The notes below the pieces were generated by a model that saw only the letters and a list, made by a program, of their open reading frames with translations, made no database searches and was not told where the DNA came from. This document shows positions 4,841 through 14,964 of a stretch of 22,513 bases of DNA, in pieces; position 1 is the stretch's first letter, and every line of letters starts with the position of its first letter. Position numbers and translations under genes: made by a program. Location: the IMG/VR virus record IMGVR_UViG_3300023198_001213, positions 1 to 22,513 of that record; one strand, 5' to 3'. This DNA comes from a virus.

Positions 4841-6415
4841 ATGCAACAGACGCAAGACGGCTCAGCGTGGTGGGCGGATGAGGTACAGACCGCCCGCCGC
4901 AGTCGCGTCACGCTGGCTCAGCAGGACCCCAGCACGTTCATCGAGATGGTCATGCGCGACGAGTTCACCGGCAACCCGGTGGACCAGGCAGACTGTCACG
5001 TCGCCTGGCACAATGCGGTGACCGAGAACGACCGCGTCGTGCTGTTCGCCCACATCGAGAGCGGCAAGACGAACCAGTTCAGCATCGGTCGCACGATGTG
5101 GGAGCTGGGGCGCAACCGCAACCTCCGCGTCGCGCTGGTGAGCAACACCTATCACCAGGCGGAGAAGTCGGTGCGCGCGGTGGCCGAGTACATCGAGCAC
5201 AGCGAGATGCTCCAGGGCATCTTTCCCGAGCTGAAGCCAGACGAGCCGTGGACGAACGCCTACTTCAACGTCAAGTGCGACACCATCAAGAAAGACCCCA
5301 GCGTGCAGGCCGTCGGCGTGCACGGCAACATTCTCGGCGCCCGTCTCGACCTCGTCATACTTGACGACATTCTCGACTACGAGAACACGCTCACGCCGCG
5401 ACAGCGTCAGGACTTGTGGGACTGGTATCTCGCCACCTTCGCCGGCCGTCTCACCGCCAACGCGAAGGTCATTTGCATCGGCACCGCCTGGCACCCCGAC
5501 GACATCATGCACCGGTGGGAGCGTGAGAAGATGTGGCACACGGTGCGCACTCCGGTGCTGGACACCAGCGGCCAGCCCATCTGGCCCGCGCGATGGCCGC
5601 TCGAACGCGTCGAGGCGAAGCGTCAGGAGTTGGGCCCGTTGGAGTTTGCGCGGCAGATGCTTTGCAAGGCGCGCGACGACAGTGAGAGTCGCTTCAAGCA
5701 GGAGTGGATTGACCAGTGCATCGCCAACGGCGAGGGCTGCAGCCACGCGACAACGGTGCGCGACTTCTTTACAGACAACCCAGAGCAGCGCCCGGACTGG
5801 TGGGAAGCCGCAGACCAGGACGAGATGGAGGCGACCGCCCGGCTGCTGGGCGACGCGGGCGACTACTTCTCGGGCGACCACCCTGGCAAGTTCTTCACCG
5901 GGGTCGACCTCGCGGTGCAGCGTCACGCAGCCGCCGACGAGACTTGTCTGTTCACTCTGTACCAGCGCCCGGACGGGCGGCGCCAGGTGGTCAACATCCA
6001 AGCTGGCAAGTGGACCGGCCCGGAGATTGTGGACCGGGTGATCTCTACGCACCAGCGCTTCGGCAGCATCGTCGTGGTCGAGAACAATGCGGCCCAGGAC
6101 TTCATTCTACAGTTCGTTCGTCAGCAGGAGGTGACGGTGCCAGTGTTGCCGTTCACCACTGGCAAGAACAAGGCGCACCCCGAGTTCGGCGTTGAGAGCA
6201 TCGCCGCCGAGTTCGCTGCTGGGCGCTGGGTCATCCCCTCACACAATGGTCGCACGCGTCACGCTCAGGTGGACCGTTGGATTCAGGAGCTTCTCTTTTA
6301 CGACCCGCGAGCGCACACTGGTGACCGCCTGATGGCGTGCTGGTTTGCGCGAGAGATTGCGCGGCGCAGCGAAGGCATGAGCAACCAAGTCAGCGCGCGC
6401 GTTGTCGGCGTGTGA
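4841..6415 (+). CDS. terL: terminase large subunit (DNA packaging ATPase-nuclease)
   Basis: This is the motor that cuts phage DNA and drives it into the procapsid through the portal. Residues 70-77 (AHIESGKT) are a variant Walker A; LVILDD (171-176) is Walker B with its catalytic acid pair; GTAWHPDD (214-221) is the coupling motif of this family. The RNase H-like nuclease follows, with acidic residues in GVDLAVQ (Asp356), VVVENN (Glu414) and GDRLMACW (Asp495). The 524-residue length is normal. ATG at 4841 has AGGG six bases upstream. It opens the plus-strand arm and lies 11 bases before the portal gene. No recognisable small terminase precedes it. Confidence 0.95.
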   Translation: MQQTQDGSAWWADEVQTARRSRVTLAQQDPSTFIEMVMRDEFTGNPVDQADCHVAWHNAVTENDRVVLFAHIESGKTNQFSIGRTMWELGRNRNLRVALVSNTYHQAEKSVRAVAEYIEHSEMLQGIFPELKPDEPWTNAYFNVKCDTIKKDPSVQAVGVHGNILGARLDLVILDDILDYENTLTPRQRQDLWDWYLATFAGRLTANAKVICIGTAWHPDDIMHRWEREKMWHTVRTPVLDTSGQPIWPARWPLERVEAKRQELGPLEFARQMLCKARDDSESRFKQEWIDQCIANGEGCSHATTVRDFFTDNPEQRPDWWEAADQDEMEATARLLGDAGDYFSGDHPGKFFTGVDLAVQRHAAADETCLFTLYQRPDGRRQVVNIQAGKWTGPEIVDRVISTHQRFGSIVVVENNAAQDFILQFVRQQEVTVPVLPFTTGKNKAHPEFGVESIAAEFAAGRWVIPSHNGRTRHAQVDRWIQELLFYDPRAHTGDRLMACWFAREIARRSEGMSNQVSARVVGV

Positions 6416-6426
6416 AGGAAGGTACG

Positions 6427-8238
6427 ATGTCAGACCAGGAACAGACAGACCAGGACAAGCAGGCCGAGCGCGATGCCGTGTTCAAGGTCCACGTCCTTGG
6501 TGCAGGGGTTGAGCCGCCAGCATCCAGCCAAGCCGAGGAGCAGGACAAGCTGAACGCGCTGCTGAAGAGCGGGACGACCATTGCGCCCCCTGTCTCGCCG
6601 GCGACGCTGCTGCGTATCTGGGAGAACAGCGGGTCGCTCAACCAGAACATCGAAGCCTATATGACCAACATCGACGGGCTCGGCTACCGCCTGGAGCCCG
6701 TGCTGGACTTCGACAGCCCCGACGTGAAGGAGCAGGTGCGCGAGGCAGCGTGGGCAGCCAACGATCAGGTCTCTGGCAACGCCAAGCTCCCCACCGACGA
6801 CGAGGTGGAGGAGATGATGAAGCAGCTCCGCCAGCGCGCGCGGCTGGAGAAGGTGCGGCTTAGCGCCTTCCTTGAGAACGCGAACCCGGACGGGTCGTTC
6901 GTGTCGCTGCGTCGCTCCACGCGTCAGCAGCAAGAGATTCTGGGCAATGCCTACTGGGAGGTCTTGCGGAACAAGATCAACCGCCCGGCCCGCTTCATCC
7001 TGGTGCCCGCGACTACCGTGAGCCTCACCACGCTGGACGCGCAGCCGACGAAGGTGGTGGACAAGGTGCCAGCCGGGCCGCTCGGCTTTGCAGAGGTCGT
7101 GCAGTACAGGTTCTTCCGTCGCTATGTGCAGGCGGTCGGCGGCGCGAAGCGGAGTGTCGTTTGGTTTAAGGAGTACGGTGACCCGCGCACCGTGTCGCGC
7201 ATGACGGGCAAGATCTACAAGGACGCCAGGGCGTTCGAGGCCGACGACAAGAAGCCGAAGGGCGACCTCCCCGCCACGGAGATCATCCATCACAAGCTGT
7301 CCGTCCCTGGCGAGGCGTACGGCATCCCGCGATGGTTCGGTAACCTGCTCGCCGTGCTGGGCAGCCGCGCAGCCGACGAAGTGAACTACGACTACTTCGA
7401 CAACAAGGCGATTCCGCCGTTGGCGCTGCTCGTCTCGGGCGGTGGTCTGGGCGACGACGCTGTGAGTAAGATCGAGACCTATATTCGAGACAACTTGAAG
7501 GGCCGCCAGAACTTCCACAAGATTCTCATTATCGAAGCCAAGCCCAGTGAGGCGCAGCAACTCGCGGGTGACGGTGCCATGCCGCGTCTGGCCTTCGAGC
7601 GGCTGGGCGAGTTGCAGAAGGGCGACTCGCTGTTCCAGAAGTACGACGAGCGCAACATCGACAAGATCGGTTCCAGCTTCCGTCTGCCGCGTCTCATGCG
7701 AGGCGACGTGCGCGACTTCAACCGTGCGACGGCCGTGGCCTCGCTTCGGTTTGCGGAGGAGCAGGTGTTCGAGCCTGAGCGCAAGGACTTCGACGCGCAG
7801 TTCAACCGGCGCATCCTGCCGGCGCTGGAGGTGTCGCTCTGGCAGTTCCGCAGCAACGGCCACCGCACTCGCGACCCGGAGGCGATGGCTGAGATTATCG
7901 AACGCCTGGTGCGGCGCGGTGTGCTCACGCTGAACGAGGGGCGCGAGCTTGCCTCTGACGTGATGGGCAAGTCCTTCGAGCCGCTGACGGAGTTCTGGGC
8001 GAAGCAGCCGCTTGCTCTCACGCTGGCAGGCGTGCGGCCCGGCGGTCCGCAGACTGGTACGACCACGCCGGAAGAGGACGAGCTTGCTGCGCTGCAGGAG
8101 GAAGCCAACCGTCTGGCAGCGCAGGGCGACGCAGCACTGGACGCATCCCGAGACCTGGCTGATAGCGAGTTGACCAACGAAGCTCGCGTTGAGGCCGAAG
8201 TGGAGGAGTACAATGAATCCGAACAAGAGGCTCTATAG
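6427..8238 (+). CDS. portal protein
   Basis: The portal is the dodecameric ring at one capsid vertex through which DNA enters and leaves. ATG at 6427 has GGAAGG at good spacing, which picks this start over the longer frame from 6337 that overlaps terminase. The 603-residue product shows portal hallmarks: an early LLRIWENSGSLNQNIEAY segment and GLGYRLE (61-90), an AYWEVLRN strand-helix near 174-181 followed by a VPATTVSL strand, and a long clip/stem region near 285-331 (SVPGEAYGIPRWFGNLLAVL, then NYDYFDNKAIPPLALLVSGG). The acidic helical C-terminus (VEAEVEEYNESEQEAL) overlaps the next gene by 26 bases. Position between terminase and the MuF-like gene agrees with this call. Confidence 0.92.
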   Translation: MSDQEQTDQDKQAERDAVFKVHVLGAGVEPPASSQAEEQDKLNALLKSGTTIAPPVSPATLLRIWENSGSLNQNIEAYMTNIDGLGYRLEPVLDFDSPDVKEQVREAAWAANDQVSGNAKLPTDDEVEEMMKQLRQRARLEKVRLSAFLENANPDGSFVSLRRSTRQQQEILGNAYWEVLRNKINRPARFILVPATTVSLTTLDAQPTKVVDKVPAGPLGFAEVVQYRFFRRYVQAVGGAKRSVVWFKEYGDPRTVSRMTGKIYKDARAFEADDKKPKGDLPATEIIHHKLSVPGEAYGIPRWFGNLLAVLGSRAADEVNYDYFDNKAIPPLALLVSGGGLGDDAVSKIETYIRDNLKGRQNFHKILIIEAKPSEAQQLAGDGAMPRLAFERLGELQKGDSLFQKYDERNIDKIGSSFRLPRLMRGDVRDFNRATAVASLRFAEEQVFEPERKDFDAQFNRRILPALEVSLWQFRSNGHRTRDPEAMAEIIERLVRRGVLTLNEGRELASDVMGKSFEPLTEFWAKQPLALTLAGVRPGGPQTGTTTPEEDELAALQEEANRLAAQGDAALDASRDLADSELTNEARVEAEVEEYNESEQEAL

Positions 8239-8620
8239 TCCTGACGCAGCGCCGTCGATTCGCGACGCGCTCACAGCCGCCGACGCGGGCACCTGGACGC
8301 CCGACGATGCTGGTACGCCTGCCGACCATGTGCTTGACGCGCGGGAGTGGGAGACGGTGCGCGTCTACCCCTCGTTCGTGGGAGGGGCTGGCACGTCGGT
8401 CACGCTCACCCCGTTGCTCGCGGTGCCTGCTGGTGCTTCGCCGCGTGAGTGGATTGCGCTGGCGACCACTGGAGTGTTGGTGCCGGAGGCGTTTTCCGAG
8501 GTGCCTGTCGAGGGCCACTTCGCCAGCTTCCGAGCCACCGCTGTCGTCCTGGGCGCAGCAGCCAGCGTGAACGTGAGGGTGACGGGTGGCCGGAAGCGCC
8601 GTAACATCGCCGGCGGCTGA
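8213..8620 (+). CDS. small beta-rich protein between portal and MuF-like gene (135 aa)
   Basis: ATG at 8213 lies inside the portal 3' end, behind GGAGGAG; a longer frame from 8189 lacks such a site. The product starts MNPNKRLYSPDAAPSIRDAL. After ~40 residues it becomes beta-rich (EWETVRVYPSFVGG, TSVTLTPLLAVPAG, FRATAVVLGAAASVNVRVTG) and ends with a basic tail (GGRKRRNIAGG). It overlaps the next gene by 35 bases. The position and beta-sandwich look suggest a minor structural protein of the head or its vertex, which is inference. I do not recognise the family. Confidence 0.7.
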   Translation: MNPNKRLYSPDAAPSIRDALTAADAGTWTPDDAGTPADHVLDAREWETVRVYPSFVGGAGTSVTLTPLLAVPAGASPREWIALATTGVLVPEAFSEVPVEGHFASFRATAVVLGAAASVNVRVTGGRKRRNIAGG

Positions 8621-9878
8621 GCCCGCGCGTGGTGTCCTGGGGCCGCCCTGGCAAGAGGTGCCAGCGCTGTCCCCAGTGCACCTGTCGCTCGACAGGCCAG
8701 TGGCGCGCGACGCTGCTGCCCTGGCGGTGTACTCGCGTGGTCATGGCTCCCTGGTGCGGTGCGGTAGCGCCAAGGAGGCGGCGCTGCGCGCTGAGATTGC
8801 AGCGCGCAGCACGGGACAAGAAGCGTGCATCTTGAAGGGCTGTCTCCAGCTTGCGTCGGGGCGCTGGTACTTCCCCACCGTGGTCGAGCGCGTGGACACC
8901 CGCAAGGTGCTCGACCCGCTGAAGCGCAGGGACCGCGCGCTGCTGGCGAAGAAGCTGTCGCGTGAGATGGTGCGCGCTGCGCGAGTGGGCGAGGTGGCGC
9001 AGCTAGAGGTGACGCTGGACCTGTACCTGGGAACGCAGTGGGGAACGCTGGCGCCGGCGCAGCTGGAGGCGGTGTACCAGACAACGCGCGCAGCCATTGC
9101 CTCGGTCGGCACCACGACGCAGATGACGGCCACTACGACCAAGGCCGGGCAGACCTTGTTCGGCGTGGCCGAGCGGAGCAGACGCGCCAAGCTCTTTGGC
9201 ATCCCCGAGAGTTTCACGCAGCCAGACGCCGCTTCGATTCGGCGGCTCAATGGCAATATGCCGTTCTTCGTGAGCGACGATTACGGTCGGCGCGTGGATG
9301 TCTTTGTCGAGAGGGACGCGCTGTCCATTCTGCAGGGCGGCCAGCGTCTCGGGTTGGACGACCAAGTGATTGGGGCGCGACTGCACACCGCGCTCGCGGC
9401 GCGGGTCACTGGCAGGACAGCCGCCTACTTCAGCAACCTATCCTCCATCTCGGTCGTGCGCTCGTCCACTTATGGCCAGCTCACCGGCTACAAGGACGCG
9501 AAGATTGCGCGCTGCGAGTGGGTGGCGGTGATGGATGGCGCCACCTGCAACATCTGCCGGTTCCTCCACGGCGAGGTGTTCGACGTAGGCCAGACGCTCA
9601 GCCAGATTCAGGGGGCCAGTGCGCCGGGACGCCCGCCGGACCAGGCCATCATGGCCGACATGCCCTTCTATCGGGAGTTCCAGGGTGCCATCCACGTCGC
9701 ACCCACCGAGCGCGGCGGTCCGGTCGGCGTCATGCTTGCCTCGGTGGACCAGAGCGCAGTCGGCCGCGACAATGCGCGTGGTCAATTCACCACGGTCACA
9801 TCGCCGCAGACGGCAGGTGCGACCAAGTCGCCGCCGGCGCACGGTCTGTGTCGGTGCCTCACCCTCCCTGTCATGTAG
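8586..9878 (+). CDS. phage Mu gpF-like head morphogenesis protein
   Basis: MuF-family proteins are minor head components made next to the portal and packaged in a few copies. The family signature is at the C-terminus: WVAVMDGATCNICRFLHGEV (312-331; Asp317, Cys321, Cys324) and PPAHGLCRC (416-424). The N-terminal ~300 residues are helical with a conserved-looking SSTYGQLTGYKDAKIARCEW lead-in (293-312). The start is GTG at 8586, overlapping the previous gene by 35 bases, with GAGGGTG nearby. The two halves of the signature are separated by about 85 residues, more than the few tens I would expect, so an insert is likely. The place after the portal fits. Confidence in the family is high, in the exact start moderate. 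Confidence 0.85.
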   Translation: MAGSAVTSPAAEPARGVLGPPWQEVPALSPVHLSLDRPVARDAAALAVYSRGHGSLVRCGSAKEAALRAEIAARSTGQEACILKGCLQLASGRWYFPTVVERVDTRKVLDPLKRRDRALLAKKLSREMVRAARVGEVAQLEVTLDLYLGTQWGTLAPAQLEAVYQTTRAAIASVGTTTQMTATTTKAGQTLFGVAERSRRAKLFGIPESFTQPDAASIRRLNGNMPFFVSDDYGRRVDVFVERDALSILQGGQRLGLDDQVIGARLHTALAARVTGRTAAYFSNLSSISVVRSSTYGQLTGYKDAKIARCEWVAVMDGATCNICRFLHGEVFDVGQTLSQIQGASAPGRPPDQAIMADMPFYREFQGAIHVAPTERGGPVGVMLASVDQSAVGRDNARGQFTTVTSPQTAGATKSPPAHGLCRCLTLPVM

Positions 9879-9886
9879 GTGTAGTC

Positions 9887-10237
9887 ATGTCGAACAAGTT
9901 GGACGTCATCGCAAAACTGGTCGACCCGAACAAGATGCGTGCGGTCGAGGCGGCGGTCACCCGCATCATTGCGGCCAGCTTTCACGAGGACGCGCGCAAG
10001 GCCGCTGGTCTGCAGGGGCGCATCACTGGAGAGCTGAAAGCGACCGAACGCGAGGTGCGGCGTCGGGCCGAGCTGTGCTGGGACTGGTTCATTGCCATGC
10101 GCGCTGAGTGTGGGTTCTCGTCGTACCACGCGATTGACCTTTTGCCGGCTGCGCTACGCTCGGAGCTGGACGGGACACCGTGGATACCACCGCCGCCGGA
10201 GCGTAGCTGGAGCCCGCAGACTGGAGTGAAGCCATGA
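9887..10237 (+). CDS. small helical protein in the head cluster (116 aa)
   Basis: ATG at 9887 follows the MuF stop by eight bases (TAGGTG upstream); its stop TGA overlaps the ATG of the next gene. The product starts MSNKLDVIAKLVDPNKMRAV. Three or four helices follow, one rich in charged residues (RITGELKATEREVRRRAELC), then a WDWF aromatic patch and a Pro-rich tail (WIPPPPERSWSPQTG). There is no signal peptide or catalytic motif. Tight coupling to MuF and protease suggests a head assembly role, which is inference. Confidence 0.7.
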   Translation: MSNKLDVIAKLVDPNKMRAVEAAVTRIIAASFHEDARKAAGLQGRITGELKATEREVRRRAELCWDWFIAMRAECGFSSYHAIDLLPAALRSELDGTPWIPPPPERSWSPQTGVKP

Positions 10238-12300
10238 CCGACATCGAAGCCAGGCTAGCGAAGGCACTGGATGGCGCAGCCGCGGCGCTGGGCCAGTCGC
10301 AGGACACAGAGGATGGCGTGTGTCTAGGGAAAGAGGCGCTTGCTCAGGGCAAATTGCAGACGCTCAAGGTGCCCGACCCCGAGTTCGTGGTGAAGCGCCT
10401 GACAGCAGGGCAGTCTGCCGGGCTGCTGGCGCGCCGGAGCCGCGTCGCACGGCTGGGGGATGCGCAGGCCCTCGTCTCCGGTCGCGGCGCAGCAGCGCGC
10501 GTCTGGGGCGTGGTTAGCCAGGGCGGCCCGGTGCCTGCTGCCTCGTTGGCTGCCCTGGATGGCGGGCTGCGCAGCGGGGTCGACAAGGCTACTCGGGCCG
10601 ACTACGCCGAGCAGGACCGGGAGCTGTTCTACATCCCGCTGCGCCTGCTGGCCCAGTTCGACCCACCGCTGAAGCTGCGACGTGCGCCACTGGGCAAGCG
10701 CTTCGGCAGCACCATCGACTTCGCCACCGACATCGAGTTGGACGCGCCGCCGGCTGCCTGGTTCGCGGAGAACCCGAGCGCCGAGCGGTTGCGCGGGCTG
10801 TCCGACGAGTCGTTGGCCACGCTGCGCGGAGAGCTGTGCGACTTGCACGACAGCGACACCGTTGCGGTGGAGAAGGCTGACATTGTGAACGCTCACGCCT
10901 TCGTGCTGGCCGAGGCGAACCATCGCACGCTCGACCTGGACATGAACGTGGAGGAGCCGTTCCTGCTGGAGACTTTGGCGACGCTCTCCGTGGCGGCGCA
11001 AGGCGGCAACCTGGACGCGTTCGAGGTGGTCAAGCGGTTCGCCACCGTGCACCCGAGTGGCAAGGCGGCGCACGCCGACGACCCAGTGTTGCTGGATGAG
11101 GTGCTGAGCGCGCTGGACAAGTCGATGGCGTTGCGGACGCCGGCGGTGTTCCTCGTGGGCGGGGTGGCGCAGCACGGGATGTCGCCCAACGACGTCGACC
11201 TGCTGGTGCGCGGCCCGTTTGACGAGGCCACCGAGCACGTCATCAAGGTGCGCCTCGGCCGCGCGCTGCCACCGCGGCTGTCGCAGCGGGTGCAGTTCGT
11301 GAAGGACGACATGGGCGGCCCCATCAGCACTCACGTTCCGCTGTTCGACTTGGTCCTGGTGCCACACTCGGCGCGAGAGCTGGTGCAGATGCGCACCTCT
11401 GACGGGTTCGAGTACTCGGGTGCGGGCGGCTGCGACGTTTGCGGCCACGGTACGGTGGCGGATGCGGACACGTTCGACCCCGAGGCACCGTGCCCCGAGT
11501 GCGGCGTGACGATGCAGGTGTCGAAGCAGGCACCGCGCGAGGGCATGTCCGGCGAGCAGCTTGACGCAGCGCGCAAGGCACGCAGCCGGCAGTTCGGTAT
11601 CGAGGTGCTCGACGCGGGTAGCGCGCTGTCGTTCCCCGCCGGGTTCCCGACTGACCTGCGTCAGTATGGCGACCCGGTGAACCTGAAGTATCCGGTGGAC
11701 ACGGTGGAGCGTGCTCGCAATGCGCGCACCCGCTTCAAGCAGAACGCGGACGCGTACCAGGAGGCGCGCAGCCGAGCGCGAGTGCACGAGCGCATCGTGC
11801 GTGCCGAGCTGCGGTTTGGCGTGGTGCCGTCGTTCGACTCGGACGACCCGCTGGACAAGCTGCTCCCGGCGGGCCTGCGCGACCAGCTCAGCAAGAGCGT
11901 CGAGAAGAATGTGCGCCTGCTGAAGCAGGACAGCACCGCCGACACTGGCGGCGCCAAGGAGGAGCGCTTCGTGTTCGGCGTCGTGCTGGTGCCGGACGAG
12001 GTGGACGCGCAGGGCGAGGTCTACTCGGCCGACGAAGTGCGGAAGGCGGCGCACTCGTTTATGGAGTTGTTCGGTGGGCAGTTCAAGGTCATGCACAAAG
12101 GACGTCCTGTGGATGGCGTCCAGGTGCTCGAAACCTACGTGACCAAGGCAAAAGAGGCGCACGGAGGTGAGACATTCCCGATGGGCACCTGGCTCATGGG
12201 AGTGCGCGTGCAGGACGACGAACTGTGGGCCGACGTGCAAGCTGGAGAGTTCACCGGCTTCTCCATCGGCGGGACCGCCTTGCGCGAGAGGTTGACATAG
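10234..12300 (+). CDS. fusion: nucleotidyltransferase-like domain, zinc ribbon and XkdF-type capsid maturation protease
   Basis: This 688-residue protein looks multi-functional. Residues ~130-270 are helical (LSDESLATLRGEL, then DIVNAHAFVLAEANHR). Residues ~285-375 carry the Pol beta-type nucleotidyltransferase signature: LVGG (307-310), PNDVDLL (318-324; Asp320, Asp322) and FDLVLVP (371-377; Asp372). A CxxC pair at 400-403 and another at 420-423 form a zinc ribbon. A helical linker (YPVDTVERARNARTRFKQ, 486-503) leads to the XkdF serine-protease-like domain (575-688) with FVFGVVLVPDEVDAQGEV, MHKG (His621), MGTWLMGVRV, and GEFTGFSIGG (Ser677). The protease would process the scaffold during capsid maturation; the transferase role is unknown. 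ATG at 10234 overlaps the upstream stop (ATGA). A single in-frame TAG ends it 27 bases before the next gene. Confidence 0.8.
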   Translation: MTDIEARLAKALDGAAAALGQSQDTEDGVCLGKEALAQGKLQTLKVPDPEFVVKRLTAGQSAGLLARRSRVARLGDAQALVSGRGAAARVWGVVSQGGPVPAASLAALDGGLRSGVDKATRADYAEQDRELFYIPLRLLAQFDPPLKLRRAPLGKRFGSTIDFATDIELDAPPAAWFAENPSAERLRGLSDESLATLRGELCDLHDSDTVAVEKADIVNAHAFVLAEANHRTLDLDMNVEEPFLLETLATLSVAAQGGNLDAFEVVKRFATVHPSGKAAHADDPVLLDEVLSALDKSMALRTPAVFLVGGVAQHGMSPNDVDLLVRGPFDEATEHVIKVRLGRALPPRLSQRVQFVKDDMGGPISTHVPLFDLVLVPHSARELVQMRTSDGFEYSGAGGCDVCGHGTVADADTFDPEAPCPECGVTMQVSKQAPREGMSGEQLDAARKARSRQFGIEVLDAGSALSFPAGFPTDLRQYGDPVNLKYPVDTVERARNARTRFKQNADAYQEARSRARVHERIVRAELRFGVVPSFDSDDPLDKLLPAGLRDQLSKSVEKNVRLLKQDSTADTGGAKEERFVFGVVLVPDEVDAQGEVYSADEVRKAAHSFMELFGGQFKVMHKGRPVDGVQVLETYVTKAKEAHGGETFPMGTWLMGVRVQDDELWADVQAGEFTGFSIGGTALRERLT

Positions 12301-12327
12301 AGGTACAGTTCGCAACAGAGGCGATGG

Positions 12328-13986
12328 ATGCAGCTCTCCAAGGCAGACGCAGCTATCGAGGCTGCGCTCGGCGCGCTGAAGGTCAGTGGTGCTCGCTTTC
12401 GTCTGCGCGATATCTTGGTGGAGGAAGTTTCGCTGGTAGACCGCGCCGCGAACAAGCGGCGGTTTCTCGTTGTGAAGCAGCAGGGTGACAACATGGGCAA
12501 TCCAGACAGCGCTGTGCAGAAGCTCGAACTCTCCAAAACGACCAAGGCAGCTCTGCTGCTGACGCTGACCAACGCGCTGGAGCGTTTCGTGCCAGTGGTC
12601 CACGCGGTCAAGGGTGCGGATGAGTTGGAAGCCGATGGCGCTGGGCTGCCCGCAGACCTGGCTGCAGCGCTCGCCGGTGTCGGCGCCATGCTGTCCGGTG
12701 TGCTGGACGACCACGCCGTGTCGGTGTCCAAGCAGATGCACGTTCACAGTCTGCCGGGTGGCGAGATGACTGGCGAAGCCGGCGAGGGCCCGCACATGCA
12801 CAGTCTGCCGGACGGCGGTGAGACTGGTAGCGCTTCCGGCGAGGGGCACACGCACAGTCTCCCTGATGGTGGTGAGACTGGGCCTGAGCAGTACGTCGAA
12901 GGCGAGGAGATGGAAGAAGAGGAGATGGCGGCCAAGTCGTTGGCCAAGTTCATCTCGAAGGTGCTGGGGGACGAGGCGCCCGAGGCGCTGTCCGCCGAGA
13001 AGCTCAGCGGACTGGGCAGCGAGTTTGCCGACAAGATGGGCGTGCTCGCGCGCGTCATCGCACTCATTGCCGACGTTGGTTCGCCCGACGAGCTGGCTGA
13101 CATGGGCAACCGCATGCTCGGTGTCGGCAAGGCGCTGAAGCGCGACGGCACCGCATCGCAGGTGCTCGATGTGGTGGCAGATGTGGCCAGCGCTACGTCT
13201 GCCGAGGCGGCGGACGGCGAGGAGCTGACTGCCGAGACCGTGGTGAAGATCAGGCAGCTCGCAGCCACGCTGAACGAGCTGGTCGAGAAGTACCCGAGCC
13301 CGGTTGCGGGCGAAGCCAAGGGAGACGGCGACATGACCGCGAAGGCCGACGACACCAGCAAGAACGACACCCCGCCCGAGGGCAGCGCCAAGGACCAGAG
13401 CAAGGACGCGGCCGGTGCGGCGCCTGGCGAGGGCAACCTGGACAACGCGGACAAGGACGCGGCCGACGCGGCTGCTGCCAAGAACGTGGATGCCGATGCT
13501 GACACCGAGCCCGGTGCTTCGGCTGATGACATCGAGGCAGACGAGAGCGTCGTGAAGATGGCCGAGGCCATTGCGACCGGCGTCGTGGTGCTCTCCAAGG
13601 CCGGCCGCAAGATGAGCCGGGTGCGGCTGCGCCGCATGCGCAACGCGGTCAACACTCTGGGTGAGTTGCTGGGCGAGTTGGACGACGAAGCCAGCGCCGG
13701 CGACGGCACGGAGAAGCGCGTGGCCGAGACCACGCCCCAGCCGCCCGACAAGGAGCCGGGCGACACCAGCGTCGGGCACGCCGGCCCGCCCGACAAGCGC
13801 AACGACAAGGCCGAGAACCTGCCGGCAGTGGAAGACGTGCTGAAGCGCGTGGACGAGCTGCAGGCCGAGGTCAAGAAACTTGCCGACACGCCGGAACCTC
13901 CGGCGAGCCGTGCAGATGAGAACGCTGGTTCACCAGGCGTCCCGCCGAACGGCGGGAAGAGTGCTGGCGGGCCGTGGGTCTGGTGA
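12328..13986 (+). CDS. probable capsid scaffold, linked to the protease
   Basis: This likely guides capsid assembly and is then degraded. Residues 28-50 carry the conserved segment DILVEEVSLVDRAANKRRF and VVK, which in XkdF-type proteins I know belongs to the same polypeptide as the protease. After that come a three-copy His-rich repeat (137-185), an acidic patch (VEGEEMEEEEM, 190-200), a helical region, a long Asp/Ala/Lys-rich low-complexity stretch (~330-410) and a C-terminal coiled coil (VEDVLKRVDELQAEVKKLAD), as expected of a scaffold just before the major capsid gene. ATG at 12328 has GAGG six bases upstream. It is in the same frame as the protease gene, separated only by one TAG. An internal ATG at 12493 could give a shorter scaffold. 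No membrane span. Confidence 0.75.
   Translation: MQLSKADAAIEAALGALKVSGARFRLRDILVEEVSLVDRAANKRRFLVVKQQGDNMGNPDSAVQKLELSKTTKAALLLTLTNALERFVPVVHAVKGADELEADGAGLPADLAAALAGVGAMLSGVLDDHAVSVSKQMHVHSLPGGEMTGEAGEGPHMHSLPDGGETGSASGEGHTHSLPDGGETGPEQYVEGEEMEEEEMAAKSLAKFISKVLGDEAPEALSAEKLSGLGSEFADKMGVLARVIALIADVGSPDELADMGNRMLGVGKALKRDGTASQVLDVVADVASATSAEAADGEELTAETVVKIRQLAATLNELVEKYPSPVAGEAKGDGDMTAKADDTSKNDTPPEGSAKDQSKDAAGAAPGEGNLDNADKDAADAAAAKNVDADADTEPGASADDIEADESVVKMAEAIATGVVVLSKAGRKMSRVRLRRMRNAVNTLGELLGELDDEASAGDGTEKRVAETTPQPPDKEPGDTSVGHAGPPDKRNDKAENLPAVEDVLKRVDELQAEVKKLADTPEPPASRADENAGSPGVPPNGGKSAGGPWVW
12736..12885 (+). repeat. three-copy His-rich repeat inside the scaffold gene
   Basis: The unit HxHSLPxGGExTG occurs three times with about 18-20 residue spacing: MHVHSLPGGEMTG, HMHSLPDGGETG and HTHSLPDGGETG. 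The DNA copies are similar but not identical (cacagtctgccggacgg versus cacagtctccctgatgg). The HxH pairs could bind metal. Similar GHTH-type repeats occur in various phage structural proteins. Confidence 0.85.
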
Positions 13987-14031: not shown

Positions 14032-14964
14032 ATGGAAGACAATCGAAGCATCGTCCAGAAGGCGGACTTCCTGGTCGCGCAGTTGGCGCCGGGTGGGCTG
14101 CTCGAACCAGCGCAAGCGGATCGGTTCATCCGATTGGCCATCGACGCCAGCGTGCTCATGCAGAAGATGACGCGCGTTGACATGCGTGCGCCGAAGGAGT
14201 TGCGCGAGAAGATTCGCTACGGGTCGCGCGCTCTCCGCAAGGGCACCGAGGCCACCGCGCTGAGTGAGGCGCAGCGGAGCCGTCCCGACACCTCCAAGGT
14301 GGAGCTGGATGCCCAGCTCGTGAAGGCCGAGACGCGCATCTCGTTCGAGGCCATGGAGGACAGCATCGAGCGCGGTAACTTCGAGAACACCGTGCGCGAC
14401 ACCCTGGCCGAGCGCATCGCGCTGGACCTGGAAGACCTGGCCGTCAACGGCGACCTCACCTCGGCAGACAGCCTGATGAGCGTGCTCGACGGCTTCCTGG
14501 TGCAGACCACCTCCAACACCGTGCTCGGCGGCGGCGCGACGCTGTCTCGTCCGGTGCTGAAGGATACGCTGAAGGCCATGCCTTCGGAGTTCCGCCGTGA
14601 CAAGCGCTCGATGGCGTACATCACGGCCGACGAGGCGGTGATCGACTATCACGAGAGCTTGGGTGACCGGGCGACCGTGCTGGGCGATGAGCACGTCGTG
14701 CAGCCCGAGAACCGCGGCTTCGGTGGCAGTCCCGTCATGGGCGTCCCCGTCTTCCCGGTCAACCTCGGCGGTGCGACCAACGAGACCGAGCTGCTCTTTG
14801 CCGACCCCAGCAACATGCTCTTCGGAGTGTGGCGCAACATCCGCGTCGACACGGACAAGGACGTGTCGGCTGGCGTGTACGTCATCGTCGTGACTGCGCG
14901 GGTGGACTTCAAGTGGGCCGAAGAGACGGCGGCCGTCAAGACCACGGGGATCGTCGCGGTCTGA
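14032..14964 (+). CDS. major capsid protein, HK97-like fold
   Basis: This protein should form the icosahedral shell. It is 310 residues long and starts MEDNRSIVQKADFLVAQLAP. The HK97-type pattern is visible: an N-terminal helical arm, an E-loop region with strands (KVELDAQLVKAETRISFEAM), a spine helix (NTVRDTLAERIALDLEDLAV), the typical NGDLTSADSLMSVLDGFL segment (about 138-157), and A-domain strands with GGSPVMGVPVFPVNL and AGVYVIVVTARVDFKW. ATG at 14032 follows GGAG and AGGAAG. It lies after the protease and scaffold, the expected order. I see no obvious processing site in its short N-terminus. A GC-rich stem-loop follows the gene. Confidence 0.93.
   Translation: MEDNRSIVQKADFLVAQLAPGGLLEPAQADRFIRLAIDASVLMQKMTRVDMRAPKELREKIRYGSRALRKGTEATALSEAQRSRPDTSKVELDAQLVKAETRISFEAMEDSIERGNFENTVRDTLAERIALDLEDLAVNGDLTSADSLMSVLDGFLVQTTSNTVLGGGATLSRPVLKDTLKAMPSEFRRDKRSMAYITADEAVIDYHESLGDRATVLGDEHVVQPENRGFGGSPVMGVPVFPVNLGGATNETELLFADPSNMLFGVWRNIRVDTDKDVSAGVYVIVVTARVDFKWAEETAAVKTTGIVAV

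Follow-up and report, generated by a model that had tools for sequence, protein, structure and literature searches.

Among the described systems closest to the protein studied here are the polyvalent proteins of phages and mobile elements. As published (Iyer et al., 2017; PMC5512222), they include head proteins, some of which end in an assemblin-like protease, and polyvalent proteins of mobile elements can contain polymerase-beta nucleotidyltransferases (NTases). We analysed a 22,513-nucleotide stretch of viral DNA (IMG/VR record IMGVR_UViG_3300023198_001213, positions 1 to 22,513; henceforth the window) in which one gene joins a predicted NTase to an XkdF-type prohead protease (Table 1). Two further systems bear on this fusion. 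MNT antitoxins transfer AMP to proteins such as HEPN RNase toxins, and bacterial LigD combines polymerase, phosphoesterase and ligase, its polymerase being of the primase type. The window fusion is a shortened member of a wider group of viral head proteins, apparently not described before, in which the NTase is linked to a DNA ligase almost without exception; this suggests a DNA-end-repair kit carried in the capsids of these viruses.

Table 1. Features of the fusion gene and its neighbours (positions are those of the window)
Feature	Position	Strand	Basis
Terminase large subunit (context)	4841..6415	+	phrog_38, E 1.5e-67
Portal (context)	6427..8238	+	PF04860, E 3e-21
MuF-like minor head protein (context)	8586..9878	+	Pfam and PHROGs matches
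Whole fusion gene, 688 aa	10234..12300	+	Orphan N-terminus, helical module, NTase, Zn-ribbon-like part, DUF6582, XkdF protease
N-terminal residues 1-173	10234..10752	+	Relative not found; low-confidence model except helix 2-20
Helical module, residues 174-256	10753..11001	+	pLDDT 82-93 over about 174-250; alignment
Predicted polymerase-beta-superfamily NTase core, residues 296-378	11119..11367	+	Conservation, profiles, predicted fold
D320-V-D322, two predicted metal-binding acids	11191..11199	+	D in 35/38 and 37/38 copies
D372, third predicted metal-binding acid	11347..11349	+	D in 37/38 copies; position within search pattern
Two CxxC pairs, C400/C403 and C420/C423, zinc-ribbon-like	11431..11505	+	Sequence; sub-threshold Pfam matches
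DUF6582, residues 477-530	11662..11823	+	PF20223, E 2.3e-6
XkdF prohead protease, residues 575-683, with H621 and S677	11956..12282	+	PF14550, E 4e-26
Scaffold-like ORF starting with EVSLVDRAANKRRFLVVK motif	12328..13986	+	phrog_3017 match; motif kept in relatives
Major capsid protein (context)	14032..14964	+	PF05065, E 8.9e-12

The fusion ORF runs from an ATG to a TAG stop, with a third-position GC of 0.86 and a coding pattern that matches its neighbours; an overlapping minus-strand ORF of 1151 aa is regarded as a high-GC artefact. Viral and genome contigs, scanned with single sequences, gave no relatives for the N-terminal half or the NTase region, and the idea that residues 30-170 are ASCH/PUA-like was dropped, as neither the related loci nor the model support it. 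An initial annotation, made from the sequence by itself, had proposed an NTase-like domain and a zinc ribbon fused to an XkdF-type protease. To this the present analysis adds DUF6582, the helical module, which precedes the NTase in many relatives too, and a ligase partner that recurs among those relatives. The CxxC pairs of the proposed ribbon are indeed present, while their identity as a ribbon is less well supported (Pfam Zn_ribbon_8, E 0.23; DUF5817, E 0.0086; both under cut-off). The DUF6582 region is 62% identical to part of the scaffold-side, downstream ORF of the related locus L001, a placement indicating that modules move between these neighbouring genes. At L001 (6123-10069), a single ORF of 774 aa combines portal with XkdF, and the DUF6582 region lies in the next, scaffold-like ORF.

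The NTase motif reads G309-G310, D320-V-D322, then D372 within LFDLVL on a predicted strand (368-375), the hGG/hGS-then-DxD pattern and third acid of the polymerase-beta nucleotidyltransferase superfamily; the hGG, the DhDh and all three acids lie exactly where the initial annotation had put them. When the window protein alone was searched against Pfam, PHROGs, NCBIfam and PDB, its NTase went unrecognised, and no named family covers the domain. A tblastn search with residues 1-449 across 50,697 phage records yielded a single meaningful match (E 2e-4), to the N-terminus of an 'ATP-dependent DNA ligase' of ANMV-1 virus in which G309, D320, D322 and D372 are identical to the window. A profile from this pair, followed by a nine-sequence profile, recruited IMG/VR contigs and one Myxococcales bin, so that 38 NTase copies could be compared (the window and 37 from ANMV-1 virus, the contigs and the bin), several of them near-duplicates. 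The bin is the sole NTase carrier among the 195 genomes searched in its phylum, and the NTase is therefore not a common prophage gene there.

Across these copies, window included, G309 is kept in 37, and the conservation of the three acids (Table 1) is such that their non-conservation among homologues, which the initial annotation had named as a refutation, did not occur. D372 lies inside the peptide pattern that fetched the loci, which biases its conservation upward, and the only copy without it (L005) is frameshifted; the patterns used to retrieve the viral loci include neither D320 nor D322. Outside the motif residues the window domain is only 28-45% identical to its relatives.

Profiles and structure prediction point the same way. 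Against PDB sequences the family profile matched family-X polymerases exclusively and weakly (E 0.25-1), with the GG...DxD motif lining up in the displayed alignments, and one relative (L020) matched DNA_pol_B_palm with an E-value of 8.7e-5, slightly under the curated cut-off. AlphaFold2 modelled the NTase core (residues 300-375) with pLDDT 83-89 in the order strand, helix, strand (DxD), helix, strand, strand (D372). The top four Foldseek matches of the predicted fold were MNT nucleotidyltransferases (E 0.16-0.3, values weakened by long low-confidence parts in the model used), and a non-NTase fold did not appear. The ANMV-1 match, the motif positions kept in 35-37 of the 38 copies and the confidence of the core place the motif beyond chance. 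The fold matches are singly weak but, combined with conservation, make a polymerase-beta-superfamily identity secure; the NTase also looks catalytically intact. No primer- or template-binding domain was identified for it.

The XkdF features noted earlier at the C-terminus were borne out by the profile search, in which PF14550 scored 91.9 bits (cut-off 24), with the conserved His and Ser present. D591, H621, W665, G675 and S677 are invariant across 30 XkdF domains (window and related loci), and the protease therefore looks active. Proteins of phrog_3017 carry an EVSLVDRAANKRRF-type motif ahead of XkdF within one chain; in the window the scaffold-like ORF matches phrog_3017 positions 4-34 and XkdF matches positions 35-155, and the EVSLVDRAANKRRFLVVK motif is conserved 3' of XkdF in relatives. 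The XkdF protease may require an EVSLVDRAANKRRF-type piece supplied by the scaffold gene. At 12282-12450 of the window the XkdF ORF ends soon after GFSIGG and the scaffold-like ORF opens with the EVSLVDRAANKRRF-type motif, an arrangement found also in L016, L019, L020, L024, L026, L027, L033, L037 and L038. TAG readthrough joining the fusion gene to the in-frame scaffold-like ORF was considered and is disfavoured: given the stop, an AGAGG Shine-Dalgarno-like stretch upstream of the ATG, and the many relatives in which the two frames lie tens to hundreds of bases apart or in different frames, separate genes are more likely.

The fusion gene sits between the terminase-portal-MuF block and the major capsid gene. 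Its order of portal, MuF and NTase-XkdF is shared with L014, L015 and L016, whose portals match that of the window with E-values of 1e-101 to 1e-141; L015 also has a terminase, and L015 and L016 a capsid gene. A small tree groups the window with these three loci and L025 (support 1.0). Elsewhere in the window, a minus-strand ORF (1528-2169) encodes a protein of 213 aa that starts like a signal peptide and weakly matches a transglycosylase (phrog_28981, E 0.013); it may be a lysis enzyme.

Among the relatives the NTase is usually followed by an ATP-dependent DNA ligase and then XkdF, in a single ORF of ~1040-2180 aa or spread across neighbouring ORFs, with portal and capsid genes on either side. 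NTase and ligase are often separated by a methyltransferase (class I or D12), a phosphoesterase-like region or both. No DNA ligase was found at the corresponding place in the window or anywhere in its record; the likeliest history is that the ligase part was lost and the Zn-ribbon/DUF6582 segment gained. We then compared D320 with the presence of the ligase in the 26 loci that have both NTase and XkdF, window included. Where the ligase is present, D320 and D322 are kept in 22 of 22 loci; in the four ligase-less loci D320 is lost from L006 (D320Q), L041 (D320K) and L011 (D320G, with D322N), and the window alone is intact. With loci counted as independent, the chance of this pattern is ~0.0015 (4/2600); L006 and L041 are possibly sisters (weak support), which would make the loss of D320 two or three events. 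Because the three other ligase-less relatives lost D320, the comparison suggests that the activity of the NTase is normally in the service of ligation and that the copy in the window still has a role, with another ligase or on another substrate.

Several relatives carry further modules. The 105-kb contig JACPVI010000063.1 of the Myxococcales bin has two similar, non-identical head-gene sets (L013 and L014), oppositely oriented and close to its two ends, and both include a giant ORF of the methyltransferase-NTase-ligase type (2140 aa, cut by the contig end, and 2175 aa). The L013 frame (6350-12772) reads as containing an ADP-ribosyltransferase-like stretch between methyltransferases and NTase. 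Other N-terminal partners of the NTase (L004, 1807-4014; L016, 8696-13318; L025, 8267-10408) are a LAGLIDADG-like domain (Pfam), TGT-like barrels (by sequence reading) and a metallo-beta-lactamase domain (Pfam). In ANMV-1 virus (L003, 5868-9368) a 1166-aa, very Cys-rich protein with EB/Dickkopf-like repeats appears to end in a MuF-like stretch.

These combinations recall a LigD-like kit, of which the ligase and NTase are solid and the phosphoesterase-like segment putative. An ATP-dependent ligase is in the chain in most relatives and not in that of the window, and the window protein gave no match to LigD_N (3'-phosphoesterase). In L016, LigD_N reached E 0.001, below cut-off, and the structure model of the segment was unreliable, so that neither profile nor model confirmed a LigD-phosphoesterase identity for the relatives' segment. 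No Ku was found in 15 related viral records, mostly fragments; one Ku match, in the Myxococcales bin, is likely the host's own.

We favour, tentatively and with a probability of roughly 0.4, a reading in which the gene encodes a head polyprotein whose intact PolX-like NTase would be freed by the XkdF protease, packaged, injected and active on DNA ends. The XkdF part would take the whole chain into the procapsid along with the scaffold and, during maturation, would free an N-terminal cargo of helical module and NTase, which would remain with the packaged DNA and enter the next host together with it. There the NTase would add nucleotides to DNA ends, by fill-in or end processing, and so assist repair or circularisation of the entering genome; relatives would supply a ligase in the same or a neighbouring chain, and the window phage would need a separate phage or host ligase. 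DNA ends are favoured as the substrate because the usual partner in relatives is an ATP-dependent DNA ligase. Support comes from the kept acids, the family-X and palm matches, the MNT-like fold, the invariant H621 and S677, the NTase-ligase-XkdF order, the terminase/portal/MuF/capsid synteny with L015 and L016 and the loss of D320 in the other three ligase-less relatives, and polyvalent proteins offer a published precedent for a capsid-type protease at the C-terminus (PMC5512222); against it count the missing ligase of the window, the unconfirmed phosphoesterase of relatives, the failure to find Ku in the related viral records, the absence of any identified primer- or template-binding domain and the MNT antitoxins topping the fold matches. 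The initial annotation had offered either delivery into the host or a role at DNA ends while packaging proceeds: the relatives favour its DNA ends, and its timing fits less well than one after injection.

Protein modification by the NTase is a possible alternative on the predicted fold, since the nearest solved folds are those of AMP-transferring MNT antitoxins. As a packaged effector, the NTase would put AMP or another NMP on a protein of the host, such as a HEPN RNase toxin or another defence component, and would be an injected anti-defence factor. This main rival we judge unlikely. It would account for the HEPN-MNT antitoxins at the top of the solved-structure matches, for the minimal domain and for a window triad that is intact although there is no ligase, but the sequence profiles indicate family-X polymerases, and most relatives have the NTase in one chain with a DNA ligase and often with DNA methyltransferases. 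Protein modification was also proposed by the authors of PMC5512222 for the polymerase-beta NTases of mobile elements.

Both remaining readings are less likely than AMP transfer. The three relatives that lost D320 and yet keep the domain make it seem that a non-catalytic role exists in the family, and in the window phage too the NTase could be a purely structural or scaffold-binding remnant; this is improbable, as G309, D320, D322 and D372 are all retained there despite the divergence of the rest of the domain. It is more improbable still that the NTase processes terminase-made DNA ends before or during packaging, with the XkdF fusion merely bringing it to the procapsid. Location in the terminase-portal-capsid block and DNA ends that suit a ligase partner fit such a role, but fusion to an internal scaffold protease puts the NTase inside the shell and the terminase cuts outside, and the DNA methyltransferase, TGT-like and metallo-beta-lactamase modules of relatives suit cargo better.

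If the cargo of the preferred polyprotein is packaged, these viruses supply the enzymes for processing DNA ends themselves and do not depend on the host when they are most vulnerable, and releasing the cargo is a second role of the capsid protease. A broader and more doubtful proposal is that capsids of tailed bacterial and archaeal viruses hold a DNA-end repair machine (PolX-like NTase, ligase and DNA methyltransferases) fused to the capsid protease, which would be released and injected to heal, circularise and protect the genome, the window being a minimal, NTase-only version. The NTase would be a new enzyme family of bacterial and archaeal viruses, met in 1 of 50,697 phage records, and the ligase-less versions offer a natural test of whether it serves the ligase. 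We found no published description of the NTase-ligase-XkdF class in the literature covered, which leaves out most subscription journals and hence is no proof of novelty.

How, then, does the window compare with known systems? Phage polyvalent proteins (PMC5512222) are likewise multi-domain enzymes encoded with virion genes, some with a protease and some with a polymerase-beta NTase. Several effector-type domains in a virion-gene context are found here too, the window itself having one enzyme besides the protease. Unlike the window, the polymerase-beta NTases described there belong mainly to Firmicutes conjugative elements and are fused to ArdC-N, and the DNA-ligase/NTase/XkdF combination is absent from the text consulted. 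MNT antitoxins and family-X DNA polymerases have the GG...DxD...D motif and predicted fold in common with the window NTase, which is close to neither. Relatives of the window resemble LigD in joining an ATP-dependent ligase to a polymerase-like domain and a putative phosphoesterase-like segment, whereas the window itself has the NTase only and the related viral records yielded no Ku. The ANMV-1 ligase (KP703175, AJP62006), which its paper (PMC4372165) does not mention, has an unannotated NTase with all motif residues, and NTase and ligase adjoin the portal gene; it differs from the window in having a ligase and in a chain without XkdF. An XkdF stretch is also present in PHROG 14859, whose label is 'RNA ligase'. 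Finally, in Rhizobium phage RHph_Y1_11 and other cultured phages, where the enzyme is annotated as a DNA methyltransferase and not an NTase, a nucleic-acid enzyme stands N-terminal to an XkdF/PF14550 protease, as in the window.
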